A stretch of 64,000 nucleotides of DNA from Bordetella petrii (GTDB taxonomy: Bacteria; Pseudomonadota; Gammaproteobacteria; Burkholderiales; Burkholderiaceae_B), in contig NZ_JAFMZZ010000001.1 of NCBI RefSeq assembly GCF_017356245.1, positions 1,240,249 to 1,304,248 of the forward strand, written 5' to 3'. Each line of letters starts with the position of its first letter. The first letter of the stretch is position 1. The position numbers and the translations under genes were made by a program. A model generated the notes under the pieces. It ran no database searches. It had not been told where the DNA came from and saw nothing but the letters and a program-made list of their open reading frames with translations. Of the stretch, positions 52,588-60,441 are shown piece after piece.

Positions 52588-52682
52588 CAGGTGTCAGGCT
52601 CCCGCAGGGTGCCTGACACCGTACAACTGAGATGGCTATGGTTTAAGCGGTGTCAGGCACCCTGCGGGAGCCTGACACCTGG
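52588..52682. repeat. Convergent-gene double-hairpin repeat, copy 9 (full)
   Basis: CAGGTGTCAGGCTCCCGCAGG to GGAGCCTGACACCTGGG, spacer in forward orientation (CAACTGAGATGGCTATGG). A stub, CCAGGTGTCTAA (52576-52587), precedes it, as if the left end had been partly duplicated. Confidence 0.9.
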
Positions 52683-52717: not shown

Positions 52718-54046
52718 TCAGACCGCTACGCCGTGCAGGTCGTATTCGTCGGCGGCGGTGACGCGCACGCGCGCCAGGTCGCCCGGCCGCAGCGTGGCCG
52801 TGCTGTTGACGTAGACGCAGCCGTCGATCTCGGGCGCGTCGGCGCTGGAGCGGCCCACCGCCCCGTCGGCGTTCACTTCGTCGATCAGCACGTCGATTTC
52901 GCGGCCCACGCGGGTTTGCAGGCGGGCGGCCGAGATGGCCTGCTGGTGCGCCATGAAGCGGTCCCAGCGGTCCTGCTTGACGTCGTCGGGCACGGCGCCG
53001 GCCAGTTCATTGGCGGGCGCGCCGTTCACCGGCGAATACTGGAAACAGCCGACGCGGTCGAGTTGCGCCTCGCTCATCCAGTCGAGCAGGTACTGGAAGT
53101 CTTCTTCGGTTTCGCCCGGGAAGCCCACGATGAAAGTCGAGCGCAGGGTCAGGTCGGGGCATGTTTCGCGCCAGCGCTTGATGCGCGCCAGGGTCTTGTC
53201 TTCGAAGGCCGGGCGCTTCATGGCCTTCAGGATGCGCGGGCTGGCGTGCTGGAACGGGATGTCCAAGTAGGGCAGGACCTTGCCCTGCGCCATCAGCGGG
53301 ATCACTTCGTCGACGTGCGGATACGGGTACACATAGTGCAGGCGCGTCCAGACGCCCAGTTCGGACAAGGCCGCACAGAGCTCGGTCATGCGCGTCTTGA
53401 CCGGCCGGCCGTTCCAGAAGCCGCTGCGGTATTTCAGGTCGACGCCGTAGGCGCTGGTGTCCTGCGAGATCACCAGCAGCTCTTTCACGCCGGCCTTGAC
53501 CAGGCGTTCGGCCTCGTTCAGCACATCGCCCACCGGCCGGCTGACCAGGTCGCCGCGCATCGACGGAATGATGCAGAAGCTGCAGCGGTGGTTGCAGCCT
53601 TCGGAAATTTTCAGGTAGGCATAGTGGCGCGGCGTCAGCTTGATGCCCTGTGGCGGCACCAGGTCGACGTACGGGTTGTGGTCGGCCTTGGGCGGCGCGG
53701 CCTGATGCACCGCGCGCACCACTTCTTCGTACTGCTGCGGGCCGGTCACGGCCAGCACGCTGGGGTGCACGTTGCGGATCACCGATTCTTCGACGCCCAT
53801 GCAGCCGGTGACGATGACCTTGCCGTTCTCGGCGATGGCCTCGCCGATGGCGTCCAGCGATTCGGCCTTGGCGCTGTCGATGAAGCCACAGGTGTTGACG
53901 ACCACCACGTCGGCGTCGTCGTATTCGGGCGTGACCTGGTAGCCCTCGGTGCGCAGCTGGGTCAGGATGCGTTCGGAGTCGACCAGGGCTTTCGGACAGC
54001 CAAGTGAAATAAATCCCACTTTTGGTGATTTAGATTTGTATGTCAT
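52718..54046 (-). CDS. rimO: Ribosomal protein S12 methylthiotransferase RimO with island-supplied start
   Basis: 442-residue radical-SAM methylthiotransferase that modifies Asp88/89 of ribosomal protein S12. N-terminal UPF0004 domain with [15 protein letters not shown] and [11 protein letters not shown] (cluster cysteines), radical-SAM motif CNHRCSFC (about 150-157), and a C-terminal TRAM domain (about 375-442). The first 15 codons ([15 protein letters not shown]) are AT-rich, then composition switches sharply to GC-rich at GCPKALV. The host's own start is found displaced at 60211-60267, so these codons and the promoter belong to the inserted island. The protein is full length and presumably active. 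Confidence 0.97.
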
Positions 54047-54470
54047 TGATATTAATGAATTTTATTTGGGGCCGAGGCTGATGGCCCCCAAGGGTGTGCA
54101 AAAGTTGCCCTAGGCGACAAATAAACTGCGAAATTCTACCGGTTCAAGGCGACTGAGATCCGATCAAGCAAATATGCCGTGGATTTCCCTGCGGTGTGCG
54201 CCGATCTTTTCCTTTGGGCGGATACACCCACGTTGGCATTGAAGGTGTCCGTAGGTGCATTCGAGTGGCCGCGGGCTTTTGCCCGCATCTAGGGTAGTGG
54301 CTGTGAGCCGCTGTTAGTGACTGGCGGCTGCCGACCCGAAGCGGCGGGCCAAGGCCCTGTGACGATGCTCGTGTAATATTTAGAAACTATCTGCTTTTAG
54401 CGAAAGCAAATCGGCAAAACAGTCAGCACCGTACTGCATGCTTTAAACCAACTTAGCATTTCCTCCGTTC
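54047..54470. other. 424-bp leader of island module 1, no gene seen
   Basis: The rimO-proximal end holds a hairpin (54069-54090, GGGGCC/GGCCCC), and the middle shows no coding frame. The end before the helicase gene has a possible -10 TAATAT (54374-54379) and an inverted repeat TGCTTT-TAGCG-AAAGCA (54392-54408). It must include the new rimO promoter, leftward, and the helicase promoter, rightward; neither is clear enough to call. Confidence 0.55.
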
Positions 54471-56849
54471 ATGGCCAGGTTCTTTCCAACGCTCGATCAC
54501 ACGGAATTTTGCAGCCAAGGCGAATTCACCCTCTTTCAGGAACTGGCGGCACTCGACGATGGGTTCACCGTCATTCACTCGCTTCCTTGGCTGCGAGGCA
54601 GGACCAAGCGGGTGTACTCGCAGGAGTTGCAGAAGTACCTGCAGGTGTCCTTGGAAAAGAAACATCTGTCCGGAGAGGTAGACTTCGTAATTCTGCATGC
54701 GGAGTTGGGCATGCTTTGCATCGAGACGAAATCGGGTCTTTACAAGCCTTCGGGTGTTCGATTCATTCACGAACGTACCGGATACGAAATCGATCCCTTG
54801 ACTCAGGTCAAGGACAACACTTTCGTCCTCACCGAGATTCTGCAGTCGCGTCAATTGAAGTGCCCGGTCGGCTATGCAGTGCACTTTCCGGACTTCGATC
54901 TCGAGAGCCCGCAGATCGCCAGCGCGTACGTGCCGCTCGGCCGGCCGCTCCCCGACGGAATCCTGATCCTACAGAAGCATCGTCGGAACATACCTTTGCG
55001 CATCGTACAACTGATGGCGCACTGGAAAACTGCACTGAACTACGGTAACCAGACCAACTTCAGTCGCGAAATCGATCAATTCCTCGACGCTGTCTGGCCG
55101 CGGGAAGCGCGGGAGGGGCATCTCGGACGCAAGATCGTCGCGGACGGCGAGTTGTGGCTTCGATTAGACGACAAACAAGCGAATCAAGTGGCCTTGTGCC
55201 TCGACTGCGATCGGAGGCTGATCGCAGGTTTCTCGGGCAGTGGCAAGACGCTTATTGCGCGTGCCCTTGCCGAGCAGTTCACGTCTCAGGGCCTCAACGT
55301 ACTCTTCCTTCTGAAGAATCGTCAGATCACGCAGAAGGTGGCCGCCCAATTGAATCATCTCGGCCAAGCGGTCACAGTTCAAACATTCCATTCCTACTGT
55401 GAGTCCCTGGGCATACGGAACAGGGACAGCAGCTCTGGCGAGACCAACTATGACGAGCATCATCTGGCCCTTTGTGGGAAGGTAGATCGCCAGTACGCGG
55501 TACTGATCATCGATGAAGCTCAGGCGCTCAACGAGGCCGATCACTTGGCGCTGCACGACCATTTCGCCAATGCACGCAAGTTCGTCTTTGCTGATGAGCT
55601 CCAGGTGCTTCCCGGCATCGAGAAGGGCAGCTCCTATCGATTCCTAGAGGACACCTACGGAGAGCAATTCTTCTATCTAGCGACAGTCTATAGAAATCCC
55701 GGAGGCATTACTCAGGCGATGGTGGAGATGCGACCGCCACGGCATGAGGTGAGCTGCCCTCGCCCGATCGCCAAAGAGGACTTATCCAGAGGCATTAGCT
55801 GGGATGTTTCCAAGAGGATCCAGGCTTTGGCGGCGGAGCTCTCGCGGGCCGGTGTCATGAGGCAGGACATGATCGTGCTGAGTCAGTTCTCCTCGACGCT
55901 TATGGGGATTGATGTCTCGCAATCCACAATCTCGGCGTATCGGGGCATGGAGAAGCCCGTCGTCATCGTCGTCGCGGGTATCGACATGGATGACACCACA
56001 TTGGCTTGCGCTCTCGGGCGGGCAACCACGCGCGCTTACATTATCGTGCCTATCGAACTGATCACCTGCCTGAGCCGCGTGAGGTCGGATTTCCTGCGCA
56101 AGGGCTTGGAGACGATCAATCTCGCATCGTTGCTCGAACAGGATGAACGGGATCCGGAACCGCGAATCATCACCAACAAGGTGAAGAAATACGCAGGCTT
56201 AGTCGGAAGACACAAGATACTCGGTGAAGGATTCTCCTATGCAAGTCGATGGAGGCGATGGGTCTATGAAGGTGGAGCTACATGGAGCAACCGTGGAGTT
56301 CAGCTCTGGGGCTGGTGGCTCTCACTAACGACCTGCCTTCCCATCTCCGGGATCGACCCTGAGCGTAACGAGCCGACTGGGTGCTATCTCAGCCCCTGCC
56401 CCGAGTGCCTCACCGTGACTCCGCATGTCGCGAATCGCACATGTATGACTTGCCTGGCCTCGCCATTGGACGAAGCTAGAACCTCTGAGATCGTCCTACA
56501 GGCGGCCGAATTGGGCACTGTGCGATCGGGGATTGGGGGGCAATCTCTAATTAAAGTGGCGGCATTGGTCGGCGATTTCCAATTTCCTCGTCCTAATGAC
56601 GTTGTGCACGGGAAGACTGAAATGCCTGTCCTGTTCCTGGCCACGACAATTGTCGAGTTTCGGATGCGCCAAGGGGCGACAGTTGCCACCAAATCCCAGA
56701 TGGAGCAGTGGCTGCGAGAGATGTTGGTGGCCGGCGATTTAGATGATTCGATCGAGAGCCTTGCGGGCCGAACAATAAGTAGTCTCTGCGCTCAAAAACT
56801 ATTACTCCGAATTGGCACCGGCCAATACCGACTAACGGACCTTCAATAG
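54471..56849 (+). CDS. NERD nuclease-domain/SF1 helicase fusion, putative phage defence protein
   Basis: 792 residues. N-terminal NERD nuclease domain (about 16-130) with acidic and basic residues in GEVDFVILHAELGMLCIETKSG (Asp71, Glu85, Lys87). SF1 helicase part (about 235-560): Q-motif-like DDKQANQVAL, Walker A AGFSGSGKT (253-260), Walker B VLIIDEAQAL (348-353) and FADELQVLPG. Near 640-665 a CPEC...CMTC zinc ribbon, and a helical winged-helix-like end. Nuclease-helicase proteins of this kind are known in phage defence, e.g. Nhi of staphylococci. Codon use is clearly less GC-rich than in the host genes. Sole gene of module 1. Confidence 0.85.
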   Translation: MARFFPTLDHTEFCSQGEFTLFQELAALDDGFTVIHSLPWLRGRTKRVYSQELQKYLQVSLEKKHLSGEVDFVILHAELGMLCIETKSGLYKPSGVRFIHERTGYEIDPLTQVKDNTFVLTEILQSRQLKCPVGYAVHFPDFDLESPQIASAYVPLGRPLPDGILILQKHRRNIPLRIVQLMAHWKTALNYGNQTNFSREIDQFLDAVWPREAREGHLGRKIVADGELWLRLDDKQANQVALCLDCDRRLIAGFSGSGKTLIARALAEQFTSQGLNVLFLLKNRQITQKVAAQLNHLGQAVTVQTFHSYCESLGIRNRDSSSGETNYDEHHLALCGKVDRQYAVLIIDEAQALNEADHLALHDHFANARKFVFADELQVLPGIEKGSSYRFLEDTYGEQFFYLATVYRNPGGITQAMVEMRPPRHEVSCPRPIAKEDLSRGISWDVSKRIQALAAELSRAGVMRQDMIVLSQFSSTLMGIDVSQSTISAYRGMEKPVVIVVAGIDMDDTTLACALGRATTRAYIIVPIELITCLSRVRSDFLRKGLETINLASLLEQDERDPEPRIITNKVKKYAGLVGRHKILGEGFSYASRWRRWVYEGGATWSNRGVQLWGWWLSLTTCLPISGIDPERNEPTGCYLSPCPECLTVTPHVANRTCMTCLASPLDEARTSEIVLQAAELGTVRSGIGGQSLIKVAALVGDFQFPRPNDVVHGKTEMPVLFLATTIVEFRMRQGATVATKSQMEQWLREMLVAGDLDDSIESLAGRTISSLCAQKLLLRIGTGQYRLTDLQ

Positions 56850-56875
56850 CCTCAGCGGGCGCTTTGAGCCCCAAC

Positions 56876-56932
56876 CTATTTGTTCAAAAGACTGGTAAAT
56901 CCCACTTTCGGTGGTTGAATTTTGTATGTTAT
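56876..56932 (-). pseudogene. Decayed rimO-type start left between the two island modules
   Basis: Reads ITYKIQPPKVGFTSLLNK then stop on the minus strand; ATA replaces the ATG. It aligns residue for residue with the present rimO start ([18 protein letters not shown]) through S-L. Leader bases before the start codon also match (TTTCAATAACA versus ATATCAATGACA). It is the substitute start of an earlier insertion, displaced by module 1. Confidence 0.8.
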
Positions 56933-57025
56933 TGAAATAAATAGAAATTCTAGTGGAAGTTCAACACGGGGCTGAGCCCGTTCGTAACATTAAACCCAAC
57001 GCCACACATAGACCGCCTTGTCCGC

Positions 57026-57850
57026 CTAAAGGCGCGCCAAAAGGAATTCGCCGACGAGCCCCATAGCTTCGATGGCGGCACGAGCATCGGCGTTAGACGC
57101 TGTAGGCACCCACGGACGTCCGTGGCCAGTCCCTTGCTTGTTGCGCAGCAGATTAACGCCACAGGCGAGTTCATACATTGCGCGCTCAATCCTCCGCTGA
57201 GGCGGTTCTCCGGGCTGCGCTGTGTCGTGGGGCGTCGCTAAGCCTAGAGCAACGAATGCCTGCCCCAGAAGCGTGGGAAAGTTCGCATGCCCCGGATAGG
57301 CACCGAATTTCTGCTGCACAACGTGGGCAGCTATCGCTTCCACAAGATCCTTTCCCGTGCCGATCTCCAGAGCAGCGTCCTCGACGCCCCTCTTGGCACG
57401 CCGAACATAAGCTCTCAACGCCGCGGTAAGCGCTGAGCCGGATAGAGCGTCTAGTACCTTGGGGCGTAGATCCCCATCGGCTCCTAGGACGAATCCCTCG
57501 GAGTCGAAGGCGGAAATGCAGTTATCGATTGCATGTCTTCCGACGTAATTCGGCGAGCCGTCCCGGAAACCACCATGGCCTCTGACAAGCGAAACGAATG
57601 AGATGACAAAGGCGCCACCCGCTTCCGAAGCATGTTCAATGGCCCAATTCAGAACTGCCCGGACTCTTTTCGCTTTTCCGACCACTTGGCCATTACTGTT
57701 GGGATCTCCTTGAACTAGCCCGTGTCGCCGAATCAGGCTCTCTAGGTCGGAATGGCTTGGATCGCGCCGTTCCGATTGGGCATCGTCGACGACCTGCGAT
57801 AGCGCTACGATGATGGTGTCCGTCAATGGGGCGGTACGAGTAGTCACCAT
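57026..57850 (-). CDS. Abortive infection family protein (Abi_C type)
   Basis: 274 residues. The C-terminal third has the Abi_C hallmark in ELACGVNLLRNKQGTGHGRPWVP (NKQGTGHGRP at 237-246) followed by NADARAAIEAMGLVGEFLLARL. The N-terminal region (about 1-110) is basic, with GDPNSNGQVVGKAKRVRAVLNWA and no catalytic motif I recognise. Members of this family occur in phage-defence islands and are presumed to stop growth on infection. It is monocistronic, starting at the ATG at 57850, and separated by 80 bp from the ParA cassette. Confidence 0.82.
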   Translation of the reverse strand: MVTTRTAPLTDTIIVALSQVVDDAQSERRDPSHSDLESLIRRHGLVQGDPNSNGQVVGKAKRVRAVLNWAIEHASEAGGAFVISFVSLVRGHGGFRDGSPNYVGRHAIDNCISAFDSEGFVLGADGDLRPKVLDALSGSALTAALRAYVRRAKRGVEDAALEIGTGKDLVEAIAAHVVQQKFGAYPGHANFPTLLGQAFVALGLATPHDTAQPGEPPQRRIERAMYELACGVNLLRNKQGTGHGRPWVPTASNADARAAIEAMGLVGEFLLARL

Positions 57851-57930
57851 GAACTCAAGAATTCAGTATCTAGCTGAAGAGTATAGAGGTTGACCTTTCG
57901 CAGCCACTAGTCCCTTCTCCGGGGCTTTGA

Positions 57931-58662
57931 TCAACCGTTTCCAAGGCTCTCTTGATATAGGCGCCTACGATCAGCATCTAGGGCGCGTCGCAAGAAATCC
58001 TGAGCTTGGAAGTGCATGGCCGCAAATGCTTTGGATTCGGCAGACATACAAAGCAGAAGAGTCGTGCGCAAGGTTTCGACCACTTGAATTTGGATGTCTT
58101 TGGTTTCGGCCGTCCCCAACTTAATTTCTTGCAAGGTGGTCTTCAGGGCTAAGCTGCTAATGGTCGTGCTGTGCACAAACTTGGATAGTTCCGCGAACCG
58201 CCCCGATAAGGCGTCAAGCGACGGCTTCAGACATCCGCCGAAAGCTTTGAGCCACGCACAATGCTCGCGTAACTCCTTTAACTCCAGGTAATAGCCGTCC
58301 CTGTCTCGAATCCAGCCGTATTCAATCGGATGATCTCGGAAGTAGTAGTGGCGCCAGAAGTTCTCAATCGCGCTTCGCAGGTAGAACCTGGAGGCTCGAG
58401 CATCCCCTGTCGCGATCGAGTTCACAAGGTGAACGGCGTCCGATGCTAGCTCACGCAAAAATATGCCCAAGTGCTCTTCTAGGTCCGCAGTCTCGCGCGC
58501 CAAAGATACGAAACAAACGGCCAGCTTATGTGCAACGCGGAGCAGCTCCTTCTGTCGCGTAGCATTCTCGGCCCTTGACCGGTCGACGGTTTCCCAATAT
58601 GCCTTGAAATCTTCAGAAATTTGCCTGTCGATTGGTCGATACGCTGAGGGTGGTGCCGCCAT
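57931..58662 (-). CDS. Helical protein of unknown function, third gene of ParA cassette
   Basis: 243 residues, nearly all predicted helix with many charged residues (KELLRVAHKLAVCFVSLARETADLEEHLGIFL). RSAIENFWRHYYFRDHPIEYGW has the R-x6-H spacing seen in HEPN RNases and helical bundles of that type, but this is weak. No other motif recognised. The ATG at 58662 overlaps the stop of the preceding gene (TAATG), preferred over the ATG at 58689. Last gene of the cassette. Confidence 0.72.
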   Translation of the reverse strand: MAAPPSAYRPIDRQISEDFKAYWETVDRSRAENATRQKELLRVAHKLAVCFVSLARETADLEEHLGIFLRELASDAVHLVNSIATGDARASRFYLRSAIENFWRHYYFRDHPIEYGWIRDRDGYYLELKELREHCAWLKAFGGCLKPSLDALSGRFAELSKFVHSTTISSLALKTTLQEIKLGTAETKDIQIQVVETLRTTLLLCMSAESKAFAAMHFQAQDFLRRALDADRRRLYQESLGNG

Positions 58663-59189
58663 TAGAGATCCTTGATGGCGGTAGACCATCGACCGACAAA
58701 TCCTCCTGAATTCTTCGCCGTTCTGCGCAAACGCTCGCGGAATTCTGTCTTGGTCTCTGGATCTGATCCGTCATAGTAGGAAGCCAATCGCTTTGCAAAT
58801 CGGACTCGCGATTCTTTGTCGCGCGGCTGGATGTCAGGTGGCGCAAGAGTCGCGATGTCGGACAGTTTCGGGAACAGCGATTCGTCAAGCAAAAGGCGTT
58901 GCATTGCCGATCCGTTGGGCGAACTCTGGGTTGCGACAAGACCCGCATGTGAGCCTTCACCCTGCTGGCCGTGAGCGGAGGGGGGAGTCGGCACGTGCAC
59001 GTGGCCGGTTTGCTGGGGAAGCTCGTCGTGCAAGTCCACCAGCGCACGTATAGCCCTGCCGACGGCGGACTTTCCATCGTTCCGAAGTTTCAGGGCGGAT
59101 TCCAGCTGATCTTGGCTGAACTCCGAGGCAAGCTCGGACAAGCGTGCGAGGAGATATAGATAATTTTGACGAGGCGTACCGTTTCTCAT
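58662..59189 (-). CDS. Charged helical protein of unknown function, second gene of ParA cassette
   Basis: 175 residues. N-terminal helices (RQNYLYLLARLSELASEFSQDQLESALKLRNDGKSAVGRAIRALVDLH), a Pro/His/Gly/Ser-rich linker (about 58-95) and a basic C-terminus (FAKRLASYYDGSDPETKTEFRERLRRTAKN). The linker could join an ATPase-binding N-terminal part to a nucleic-acid-binding C-terminal part, as in ParB-like or adaptor proteins, but no fold is recognised. Its ATG overlaps the ParA stop (ATGA) and its stop overlaps the next start. Confidence 0.7.
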   Translation of the reverse strand: MRNGTPRQNYLYLLARLSELASEFSQDQLESALKLRNDGKSAVGRAIRALVDLHDELPQQTGHVHVPTPPSAHGQQGEGSHAGLVATQSSPNGSAMQRLLLDESLFPKLSDIATLAPPDIQPRDKESRVRFAKRLASYYDGSDPETKTEFRERLRRTAKNSGGFVGRWSTAIKDL

Positions 59190-60019
59190 AATTCCTCCGC
59201 CCGTTTAACGAACTCAGATGCCAAACCGGCCAAATGGTCCTTGAGCTTGTACTTGGTTTTCGCAAATTCCTGCAGTGGCGAATTGTCTTCCACTGCCTCA
59301 GCTACGCCTGTTGTCAGCGGAATGTGTTCGTCGAAAACTTCACCCAAGTAATTTACTTTTAGTTGGTTCGAAGTCGCAGTCATAGAATCCGTCCCGCGGA
59401 CCTGCGTGAGTACCAGTCCCAATCGCGGAAGGTTATGACCAGATCTCTCCTCGTACTCAGTCATTGCGCGCTCGAGCAAGGGAAGACCGAGTACAGACAA
59501 CGGATCAGGTTTCACCGGAACCAGATATGCGTCAGAAGCCAAGAAGGCGCTATAACTAAATAGGGACGCAGTCGGGGGGCAGTCGATCAGAACGTAGTCG
59601 TACTTATCCTTGACCTTTTCCAGGAACACGCGGAGGCGGTTTTCCGTGCCTCGAGGCGCAGCGTCTAATCGGATCAGGTCCAGAATTGACGGCACGATGT
59701 CTAGTGAGCAGCCGTTCCCTTCTACAGTGACTATCGTGGTCTTGGCAGTTACTTTGGGAGGAGGTGCGGTGTTCGGTACAGCGAGACCCTGCACGCCATG
59801 CCCGTCGGGGACGAAGATGTTCAAGACAGTATGACTGGTCTTCACCCAGTCAAGATACGTCTGTGTTTCGATAACCCATTGAGTGGCATTGAACTGAGGG
59901 TCGATGTCAACGAGCAGAACATCGTACTCTTTGGCAAGCTCCCAAGCCAAGCCCACAGCCAAGGTAGTCTTGCCCACTCCGCCTTTCATATTGATCAATG
60001 ACACTACTTTTGCAGACAT
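59186..60019 (-). CDS. ParA/MinD-type P-loop ATPase
   Basis: 277 residues. Deviant Walker A INMKGGVGKTTLA (Lys at 12 and 17), VLLVDIDPQFNATQW (Walker A'), and YVLIDCPPTASLFSYSAFLASD (Walker B), typical of ParA. There is no N-terminal HTH as in plasmid ParA of type Ia. The ATG at 60019 has AGGAG seven bases before it. No ParB gene or parS-like repeats are seen, so a partitioning role is unlikely; ParA-like ATPases with small partners also occur in defence and transport modules. First gene of a tightly coupled three-gene operon. Confidence 0.9.
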   Translation of the reverse strand: MSAKVVSLINMKGGVGKTTLAVGLAWELAKEYDVLLVDIDPQFNATQWVIETQTYLDWVKTSHTVLNIFVPDGHGVQGLAVPNTAPPPKVTAKTTIVTVEGNGCSLDIVPSILDLIRLDAAPRGTENRLRVFLEKVKDKYDYVLIDCPPTASLFSYSAFLASDAYLVPVKPDPLSVLGLPLLERAMTEYEERSGHNLPRLGLVLTQVRGTDSMTATSNQLKVNYLGEVFDEHIPLTTGVAEAVEDNSPLQEFAKTKYKLKDHLAGLASEFVKRAEEL

Positions 60020-60210
60020 AGCTTTCTCCTGTCCGGACGAAATGATACAGGAGCGACGTGTTAGCCGGGACGTCTGCCAATGGTCGAAATCAACACTCCA
60101 TTCTTCGCGCCGAAGGCGCCTTGGCGTAGGAATCACTGAGGGCGTTCGGCCGCATATTCAACAGGTTGTGTCGGGAACTCTGCTTTGGCAGTTAGTTTAT
60201 ATACGCTAGC
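60020..60210. other. Right end of module 2, no gene seen
   Basis: 191 bp between the ParA start and the displaced rimO start. Contains the hairpin-like GCGCCGAAGGCGCC (about 60109-60122) and an AT-rich end near TTTATATACGCTAGC. Probably holds the cassette promoter. The 174 bp after the displaced start (60268-60441) are original host leader of rimO and the end of the next gene; nothing else was recognised there. Confidence 0.5.
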
Positions 60211-60267
60211 TTAAGGCCAGCCCAGCGAAACAAACCCCACGCGCGGGGGATGGTCTTTAGAGTTCAT
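60211..60267 (-). pseudogene. rimO: Displaced host 5' end of rimO
   Basis: Reads MNSKDHPPRVGFVSLGWP then TAA on the minus strand, matching the present rimO N-terminus ([18 protein letters not shown]) in frame and position. In the nucleotides 60215-60240 versus 53994-54019, 21 of 26 bases agree, all mismatches being third-position-like changes to higher GC on this side. It is the host's own first 15 or so codons, cut off by the island. Upstream bases AAATCAATGAAC keep the host leader. Confidence 0.88.
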
Positions 60268-60441
60268 TGATTTTGAAAGGCTTTTCATGAGGTTGCCATG
60301 CGTGGCCTTATTGGGGCGAAGAAATGCCCAAAGAGACGGAGCTGACCGCAATTTTAGCCTGCCGGCGCCCCGCGGCGCGGCGCGCGGGGCGGTGCGCGCC
60401 GGATTTCGCCAGGCCGGCCCCGGCCTTGGCGATTCCCGCTA

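Follow-up and report, generated by a model that had tools for sequence, protein, structure and literature searches.

The window analysed here is a 64,000-nucleotide stretch of the Bordetella petrii genome (contig NZ_JAFMZZ010000001.1, positions 1,240,249 to 1,304,248), in which the minus-strand gene rimO is interrupted at its 5' end by a 6,221-bp island. The island probably consists of integrase-less cassettes of a cis-mobilizable type, which attach at the rimO 5' end and rely on the rimO-specific large serine recombinases (LSRs) of phages and genomic islands. This proposal is based on a host start split from its gene, half-sites of two kinds at the island ends, ends that are shared with other genomes, varied cargo between these ends, and the presence, within the same genus group, of an autonomous element that occupies this site.

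The interrupted start of rimO

Three rimO-type starts lie in line on the minus strand of the window, all in one orientation: the active start at 54044-54046, an inner start that reads ATA at 56930-56932, and the displaced host start at 60265-60267. The spacings are 2,886 bp from active to inner and 3,335 bp from inner to host, and the aligned codons contain no indels. All of this had been described in an earlier note on the same DNA and was found again. The inner start translates as ITYKIQPPKVGFTSLLNK and the displaced host start as MNSKDHPPRVGFVSLGWP, each followed by a stop; the true beginning of the host start is probably farther upstream, at MKSLSKSMNSKDH. In an independent repeat search, no direct repeat was longer than the one formed by the active and inner starts (47 nt, 83% identity, spacing 2886). 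Compared from ATG to CTT (45 codon bases), active and inner starts agree at 34/45 positions, active and host starts at 26/45, and inner and host starts at 24/45. The closer kinship of the active and decayed starts, also claimed in the note, is upheld, with its figure of 34/40 corrected to 31/40 over the first 40 bases. The three-start structure is real and not a product of chance.

We then compared the locus with uninterrupted relatives, as the note had proposed. The leader and displaced start (60440-60223) were joined by script to the rimO body at 54001 and aligned. The joined sequence aligns across the junction with the uninterrupted leader, start, and rimO of genome G093 (locus L117; 38-513 of 519 spanned) and likewise with G030 (L127), and an Achromobacter RimO (P0113) has an uninterrupted N terminus beginning MNSKDHTPRVGFVSLGCPKA. 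Since the leader and host start of relatives run directly into rimO, this alignment evidence identifies the 6,221 bp between host start and rimO body (54002 to 60222) as an insertion. Both the entry of DNA at the rimO 5' end and the supply of substitute first codons by the element, as the note had it, are borne out. The GC content in 1-kb windows is 53-58% in the island and 63-74% outside. The window rimO is the better of two matches in its own genome, the other being 34% identical.

The inner start divides the island into an inner unit, with one large gene for a NERD and SF1 helicase protein, and an outer unit with genes for ParA, two proteins without a family, and an Abi_C protein. The features are as follows, with half-site scores as defined in the next section (LLR, P-versus-B log-likelihood ratio).

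52718..54046, minus: rimO, full length, read from the substitute start (open reading frame; UPF0004, Radical_SAM, TRAM_2)
54001-54000, minus: core GG beside the active start
54002..54046, minus: active AT-rich substitute start ATG..CTT, right end of the island, B-like half-site (LLR -11.5, B score 22.2)
54047..54342, minus: non-coding right end of the inner unit, common to G020 and partly to G019 (DNA alignment)
54471..56849, plus: NERD and SF1 helicase protein, 792 amino acids, defence-like cargo of the inner unit (AAA_30 8e-11, NERD 2e-6, PADLOC RTasNERD-Hel 5e-20)
56888..56932, minus: decayed inner start (ATA), former right end of the outer unit (P' score -15.1, B score 16.3)
57026..57850, minus: Abi_C-domain protein, 274 amino acids, cargo of the outer unit (PF14355 3e-14)
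57931..58689, minus: uncharacterised protein, 252 amino acids (no family match)
58662..59189, minus: uncharacterised protein, 175 amino acids (no family match)
59186..60136, minus: ParA-family ATPase, heading the gene row of the outer unit (AAA_31 2.5e-34; weak PDC-M28B match)
60191..60222, minus: predicted P' half-site of rimO-specific LSRs, left end of the outer unit (score 21.1; 27.7 with core)
60223..60267, minus: displaced host rimO start, B half-site (translation, alignment to relatives)
60268..60400, minus: host rimO leader with TAAAAT box, stranded upstream of the island (alignment to L117 and L127)

We searched 268 genomes of the family with the 40 N-terminal residues of the active start, which begins MTYK. 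Matches were found in 224, and among the matches listed only those of the window genome (G000), G019, G020, and G087 cover residues 1-40; the fifth-best starts only at residue 3. These four genomes span three genera (g1, g2, and g8), and in each a displaced native start lies upstream, at a distance of 6,221 bp (G000), 5,294 bp (G020), 6,798 bp (G019), or 5,385 bp (G087). They are thus islands between a displaced and a substituted rimO start, for which the note had suggested a search. All four are 5-7 kb in size, their cargo differs, and a recombinase was found in none. The G020 island carries a chromate transporter, a NicO transporter, and a ChrE-like rhodanese (below the NCBIfam cut-off); that of G019 an OLD ATPase, a DNA methylase, and a weak restriction endonuclease match; and that of G087 the PADLOC candidate system PDC-M28 A, B, and C (L126, 12874-17107) together with Abi_C.

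The ends of these islands are related across genomes. The window Abi_C protein is 97.8% identical to the G087 copy, which also adjoins a rimO substitute start. At the DNA level, Abi_C and the right end of the outer unit match G087 with 94.2% identity over 992 bp, and the similarity ends exactly at 56888, the last base ahead of the core. The right end of the inner unit matches G020 (L112; 81.7% over 338 bp including rimO, plus 83% over 54 bp) and G019 (L114; 78% over 196 bp). Because G087 and G020 share right ends with the window units yet differ in cargo, the cargo is, as judged from these alignments, shuffled against one common pair of ends.

The right-end DNA had no match in plasmids or phages, and in a sample of 399 genomes of the order it matched only its own genome (G019, G020, and G087 are possibly not in that sample). 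No further MTYK-type RimO protein was among the best 120 of 7,887 cluster representatives, where clustering at 90% may hide some. Of ten viral contigs that fit the start pattern, none continues like rimO, and two further patterns gave no matches; Abi_C proteins occur at three viral loci, with 54-57% identity.

Defence-family matches among the window cargo are those of the NERD-helicase (5e-20) and Abi_C. The adjacent 252- and 175-residue proteins between ParA and Abi_C match nothing in Pfam, NCBIfam, or PADLOC, and their genes (57931-59189) may form a new defence operon. The open reading frames and family matches of the island include no integrase or serine recombinase (PF00239 was not searched on its own), and no transfer or integration genes. 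On the 3' side of rimO there is a long inverted repeat (52589-52681). The sole Rfam match, to a microRNA family at 52600-52669, was below threshold and was taken as chance.

Half-sites at the two ends

Integration at rimO and substitution of its start are known already, and the view in the earlier note that this is not a described hotspot does not hold. Phage JC1 uses a serine recombinase to integrate in the rimO 5' end, with an ATG upstream of attP that keeps rimO in frame (PMC9144972; statements on published elements, here and below, refer to the accessible portions of the papers). A Variovorax prophage with a serine integrase (PMC9658991), genomic islands of Acidithiobacillus (PMC10322971), and a Polaromonas integration cited in PMC4482086 occupy rimO as well. 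Among bacterial loci collected here, an LSR gene lies beside a substituted rimO start in G095 and in Azotobacter chroococcum (L062), and 1.2 kb away from one in Pseudomonas (L059). The recombinases of G095 and JC1 share 65% identity, and among the 268 family genomes that of G095 has a match in 1, G095 itself; G095 and the window genome belong to the same genus group (g1). The order sample holds eight JC1-like LSR matches in 7/399 genomes (E <= 1e-100), three of which adjoin rimO.

We also collected viral LSR loci, 22 from one search and then the best 80 of 210. Twenty-five of these have DNA upstream of the recombinase, with a rimO-like start in 18 by frame scan and in L203 by eye, and none in 6. 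The free attP of JC1 and of Xanthomonas phage Rb1 encodes a mimic of the rimO start followed by a stop. In ten sites with non-rimO sequence after the core, the mini-reading-frame stops shortly past LGC: L197, L198, L227, L249, L261, and L203 read LGCP-stop, and in JC1, Rb1, L245, and L246 the stop comes a few codons later. The attP sites of L205, L208, L197, L198, and L203 encode a miniature rimO start plus stop, a gene-start mimic within the attachment site.

To score left ends, we built a P' matrix from ten LSR attP sites (phage-type only), which were aligned by their rimO-like reading frame alone; the matrix spans the 24 bases that follow the core codons. In exact register, the left ends of the four islands reach 21.1 (G000), 15.3 (G020), 21.1 (G019), and 16.5 (G087), and at each of the 16 neighbouring offsets their scores are negative. 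Scores this high occur in none of 71,550 background words, the maximum over 142 rimO-side sites (duplicates included) is -3.7, and training sites left out one by one score 1.7 to 16.9. Across 491,246 GG positions in the collected loci, a score of 18.1 is exceeded only by the ten training sites and the four left ends. As an outside test of the matrix, we used four LSR elements, the three order-sample elements beside rimO and that of G095. In three of them an attL beside a displaced rimO start was located (G498, 27.0; G480, 29.4; G095, 26.3), at distances from attR of 50.9, 51.8, and 91.1 kb, respectively. In the window, the P' half-site at 60191..60222 and the displaced host start together make an attL by sequence. 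The left junction is very probably LSR-derived on these scores, and it points to a large serine recombinase and not, as the SXT-like mechanism of the earlier note would have it, to an SXT-type tyrosine integrase.

The right end was at first assumed to be a P half-site, which was dropped after a P-versus-B LLR test. This test set 24 P halves against 89 distinct native B sites (36-nt), and a separate B matrix was built from 97 distinct native sites (48-nt). For the native set, 22 of the 142 loci, those with a known or suspected substituted start or their duplicates, were excluded, L118, L119, L122, L059, and L062 among them being placed in the P set; duplicate removal collapsed the other 120 to 89 or 97. 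The 24-site P set omits the viral P halves L225 and L204, which a 26-site set includes. The five window-type right ends have LLRs of -11.5 to -25.1 (the window active start, -11.5), compared with +15.8 to +46.4 for left-out P sites and -42.3 to -0.6 for native B sites. Their B-matrix scores are 16.3-24.5, within the native range of 14.2-37.3, and the 26 P halves score -22.7 to 11.9. The GC content of the five starts over 45 bases is 29, 36, 38, 36, and 42%, against about 65% in the rimO body. Because the left end scores as P' and the right end falls in the native B range, the island appears to be bounded by an attL on the left and a roughly complete attB on the right, instead of by attL and attR.

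Six rimO starts without an LSR match upstream were kept out of both the P and the B set. Their LLRs are 22.8 (L110), 10.0 (L049), -0.8 (L095), -22.5 (L073), -24.4 (L074), and -28.2 (L060). The start of L110 is P-type and that of L095 intermediate, neither with an adjoining LSR match, and L062 has its LSR; a TGTATACT stretch is common to the rimO upstream regions of L110, L095, L060, and L062 (Azotobacter, Stutzerimonas). Two genomes of the same genus, G094 (L118, near 15471) and G097 (L122, near 13226), have the P-type rimO starts MATSKPASIAM... and METKRAPSIAM..., with no LSR match upstream. Each may mark an undetected cassette or the place of an element since lost. The reading of the G094 start as a second small cassette was rejected, its upstream genes being ordinary catabolic ones with no displaced start seen.

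Proposed movement of the cassettes and alternative origins

It is fairly likely that the cassettes were moved by LSR elements and are not independent wrecks. For the route, we tentatively propose a cycle of attB hitchhiking. The right junction, a foreign B half joined to the host B', would serve as a usable attB into which an LSR element integrates. Recombination between the outer attL and the attR of this element would excise cassette and element as a single circle, which would enter a new cell and integrate at the rimO of the new host. If the LSR element later excised alone, the cassette would stay, and the outcome, host B-P', cargo, and foreign B-B' rimO, would be the order observed. The substitute start would keep rimO in frame at every stage. 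Any rimO-specific LSR phage or island landing in the cassette attB could carry the cargo onward and leave it functional. Such cassettes may, at rather less than even chances, form a non-autonomous class with a lone P' half-site at one end and a complete, start-carrying attB at the other, in which the target is rebuilt with each insertion and stacking is possible.

The outer unit is well supported as an insertion, and the inner start is, by its sequence, the right end of this unit, decayed to ATA. We infer a separate insertion of the inner NERD-helicase unit, probably stacked in the same manner as the outer one with subsequent loss of its P' end. Two routes would explain the absence of a left end: its deletion, or entry of the unit through homologous exchange at the right end that it shares. 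The second element at the same site, as the earlier note had it, is half supported, the outer unit having a clear P' half-site (60222-60191) and the inner unit lacking one at its left edge.

Several results weigh against the proposed cassettes and their cycle. At that left edge, the P' matrix recognises no half-site, the inner start being followed by TTGAACAAATAGG (TTGAAC...) where one is expected (score -15.1). Two of the ten left-out training sites reach just 1.7 and 2.7, and in the fourth LSR element, G397, the contig ended before any attL. The window genome has no PF07508 recombinase match today, no viral contig matched the MTYK half-site pattern, and no composite of cassette and LSR element was found in viral contigs or at the order-sample LSR loci (3/8 beside rimO). 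No sigma-70-like promoter matched upstream of the active start, where the note had the element bring its own; the leader of the host gave none either. Finally, L049 and L095, possibly worn P halves, have B scores of 15.5 and 22.4, within the native range, and selection on RimO could have turned an old P half into the present right end.

These last points belong to the strongest alternative, in which the units are worn remnants of LSR prophages or islands after internal deletion, the right-end P half has come to resemble native RimO by drift, and no cassette mobility is involved. The LSR-type P' half-site and the inner unit without a left half-site are compatible with such wear, as are the partly worn-looking P halves of L095 (LLR -0.8) and L049 (10.0) without an LSR match upstream and the P-type start that G094 retains downstream of ordinary catabolic genes. 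We nevertheless consider remnants the less likely reading. Wear would have to leave a good P' in 4/4 islands and a P in 0/4, and an island size of 5-7 kb in 4/4; the same right ends occur with different cargo in several genera; and drift to host composition would not give starts as AT-rich as these. The lesser AT-richness of the G087 start and the B-like scores of two possibly worn P halves slightly lower the odds of the hitchhiking cycle and raise those of the remnants.

The remaining explanations are much less probable. Homologous exchange, by which a donor rimO promoter, start, and neighbouring genes were swapped in by recombination in rimO with no recombinase, agrees with right ends that are B-like and reach into conserved non-coding DNA. 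It is improbable, as it leaves unexplained the displaced start and P' in exact register in four genomes and the similarity that ends exactly at the core. An SXT-like element with a tyrosine integrase, proposed by analogy with prfC, would be in keeping with start substitution at other 5'-end integrations such as dusA (PMC4482086). The left end matches serine-recombinase sites, however, and the four islands contain no Phage_integrase match, the nearest on the same contigs being about 73 kb off, with none on the G019 contig among the matches listed. Of five such matches in the window genome, none is nearer to rimO than about 72 kb. With no tyrosine recombinase near the islands, one acting as mobiliser was rejected, and this origin is very improbable. 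Partial duplication of the native rimO start within the host, without a mobile element, would account for starts that resemble one another in protein; it is refuted by relatives with an uninterrupted site, and the AT-rich copies resemble each other across genera but not the host start, which leaves it a negligible chance.

Known systems and meaning

Prophages of the JC1 type share with the window island the gene, the codons (LGCP), the in-frame replacement of first codons, and the type of P' (PMC9144972). In JC1, a serine recombinase adjoins the attachment site and the rimO-side half is P; the window island has no recombinase and a B-like half on that side. The island of B. petrii BT1 9.2 (G095, L119) occupies the same site in the same genus group, with a P' that begins GGCTGTCCGTAG, much like the window-type left ends. 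This island has an LSR and a P-type start (MATSKPASIAMISL), and its displaced native start is 91 kb away.

Cis-mobilizable elements (CIMEs) resemble the window island in having no integration or transfer genes, in kept attachment sites, in stacking, and in presumed co-transfer with a neighbour (PMC5704250, PMC3146451, which cite Pavlovic 2004 and Bellanger 2011 on CIMEs and accretion). In the accessible text, CIMEs are described as keeping attL and attR, whereas the gene-side junction of the window island is attB-like with a substitute start. Because the right junction is B-like, the island would be CIME-like and not a strict CIME, with attL kept and attR not. The ssrA islands of Dehalococcoides are likewise serine-recombinase islands in tandem at one gene, 15 of them without an integration module (PMC3146451); they differ in a CcrB-like recombinase and an RNA gene as site, and no gene-start substitution is described in the accessible text. 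At dusA, islands and prophages also replace the 5' end of a modification gene and may restore its protein, but these elements are defined by their own dusA integrase (PMC4482086). The rimO islands of Acidithiobacillus ferrooxidans occupy the same site with no integrase gene in the table rows of the report; they are 165 and 53 kb long with conjugation genes, and half-sites are not described in its accessible text (PMC10322971).

The SXT/R391 integrative and conjugative elements have a tyrosine integrase, conjugation genes, and prfC as their site. The window island has rimO as its site, and no tyrosine integrase or conjugation genes were found in it. A literature search, mostly outside subscription journals and based on accessible text, found no description of small recombinase-free cassettes at rimO, and a recombinase-free cassette with attL and attB-like ends is undescribed as far as these searches show.

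A practical consequence for annotation is that the start codon of rimO can be mobile-element sequence. The P' matrix would detect autonomous elements as well as hitchhikers. If the proposed cycle is true, its attachment sites would be on hand for a natural satellite system of serine recombinases. Small defence and resistance cassettes without mobility genes would then cross genera by way of the phages' own attachment chemistry, and the target gene would go unharmed, since the cassettes bring a replacement start and leave a fresh target.

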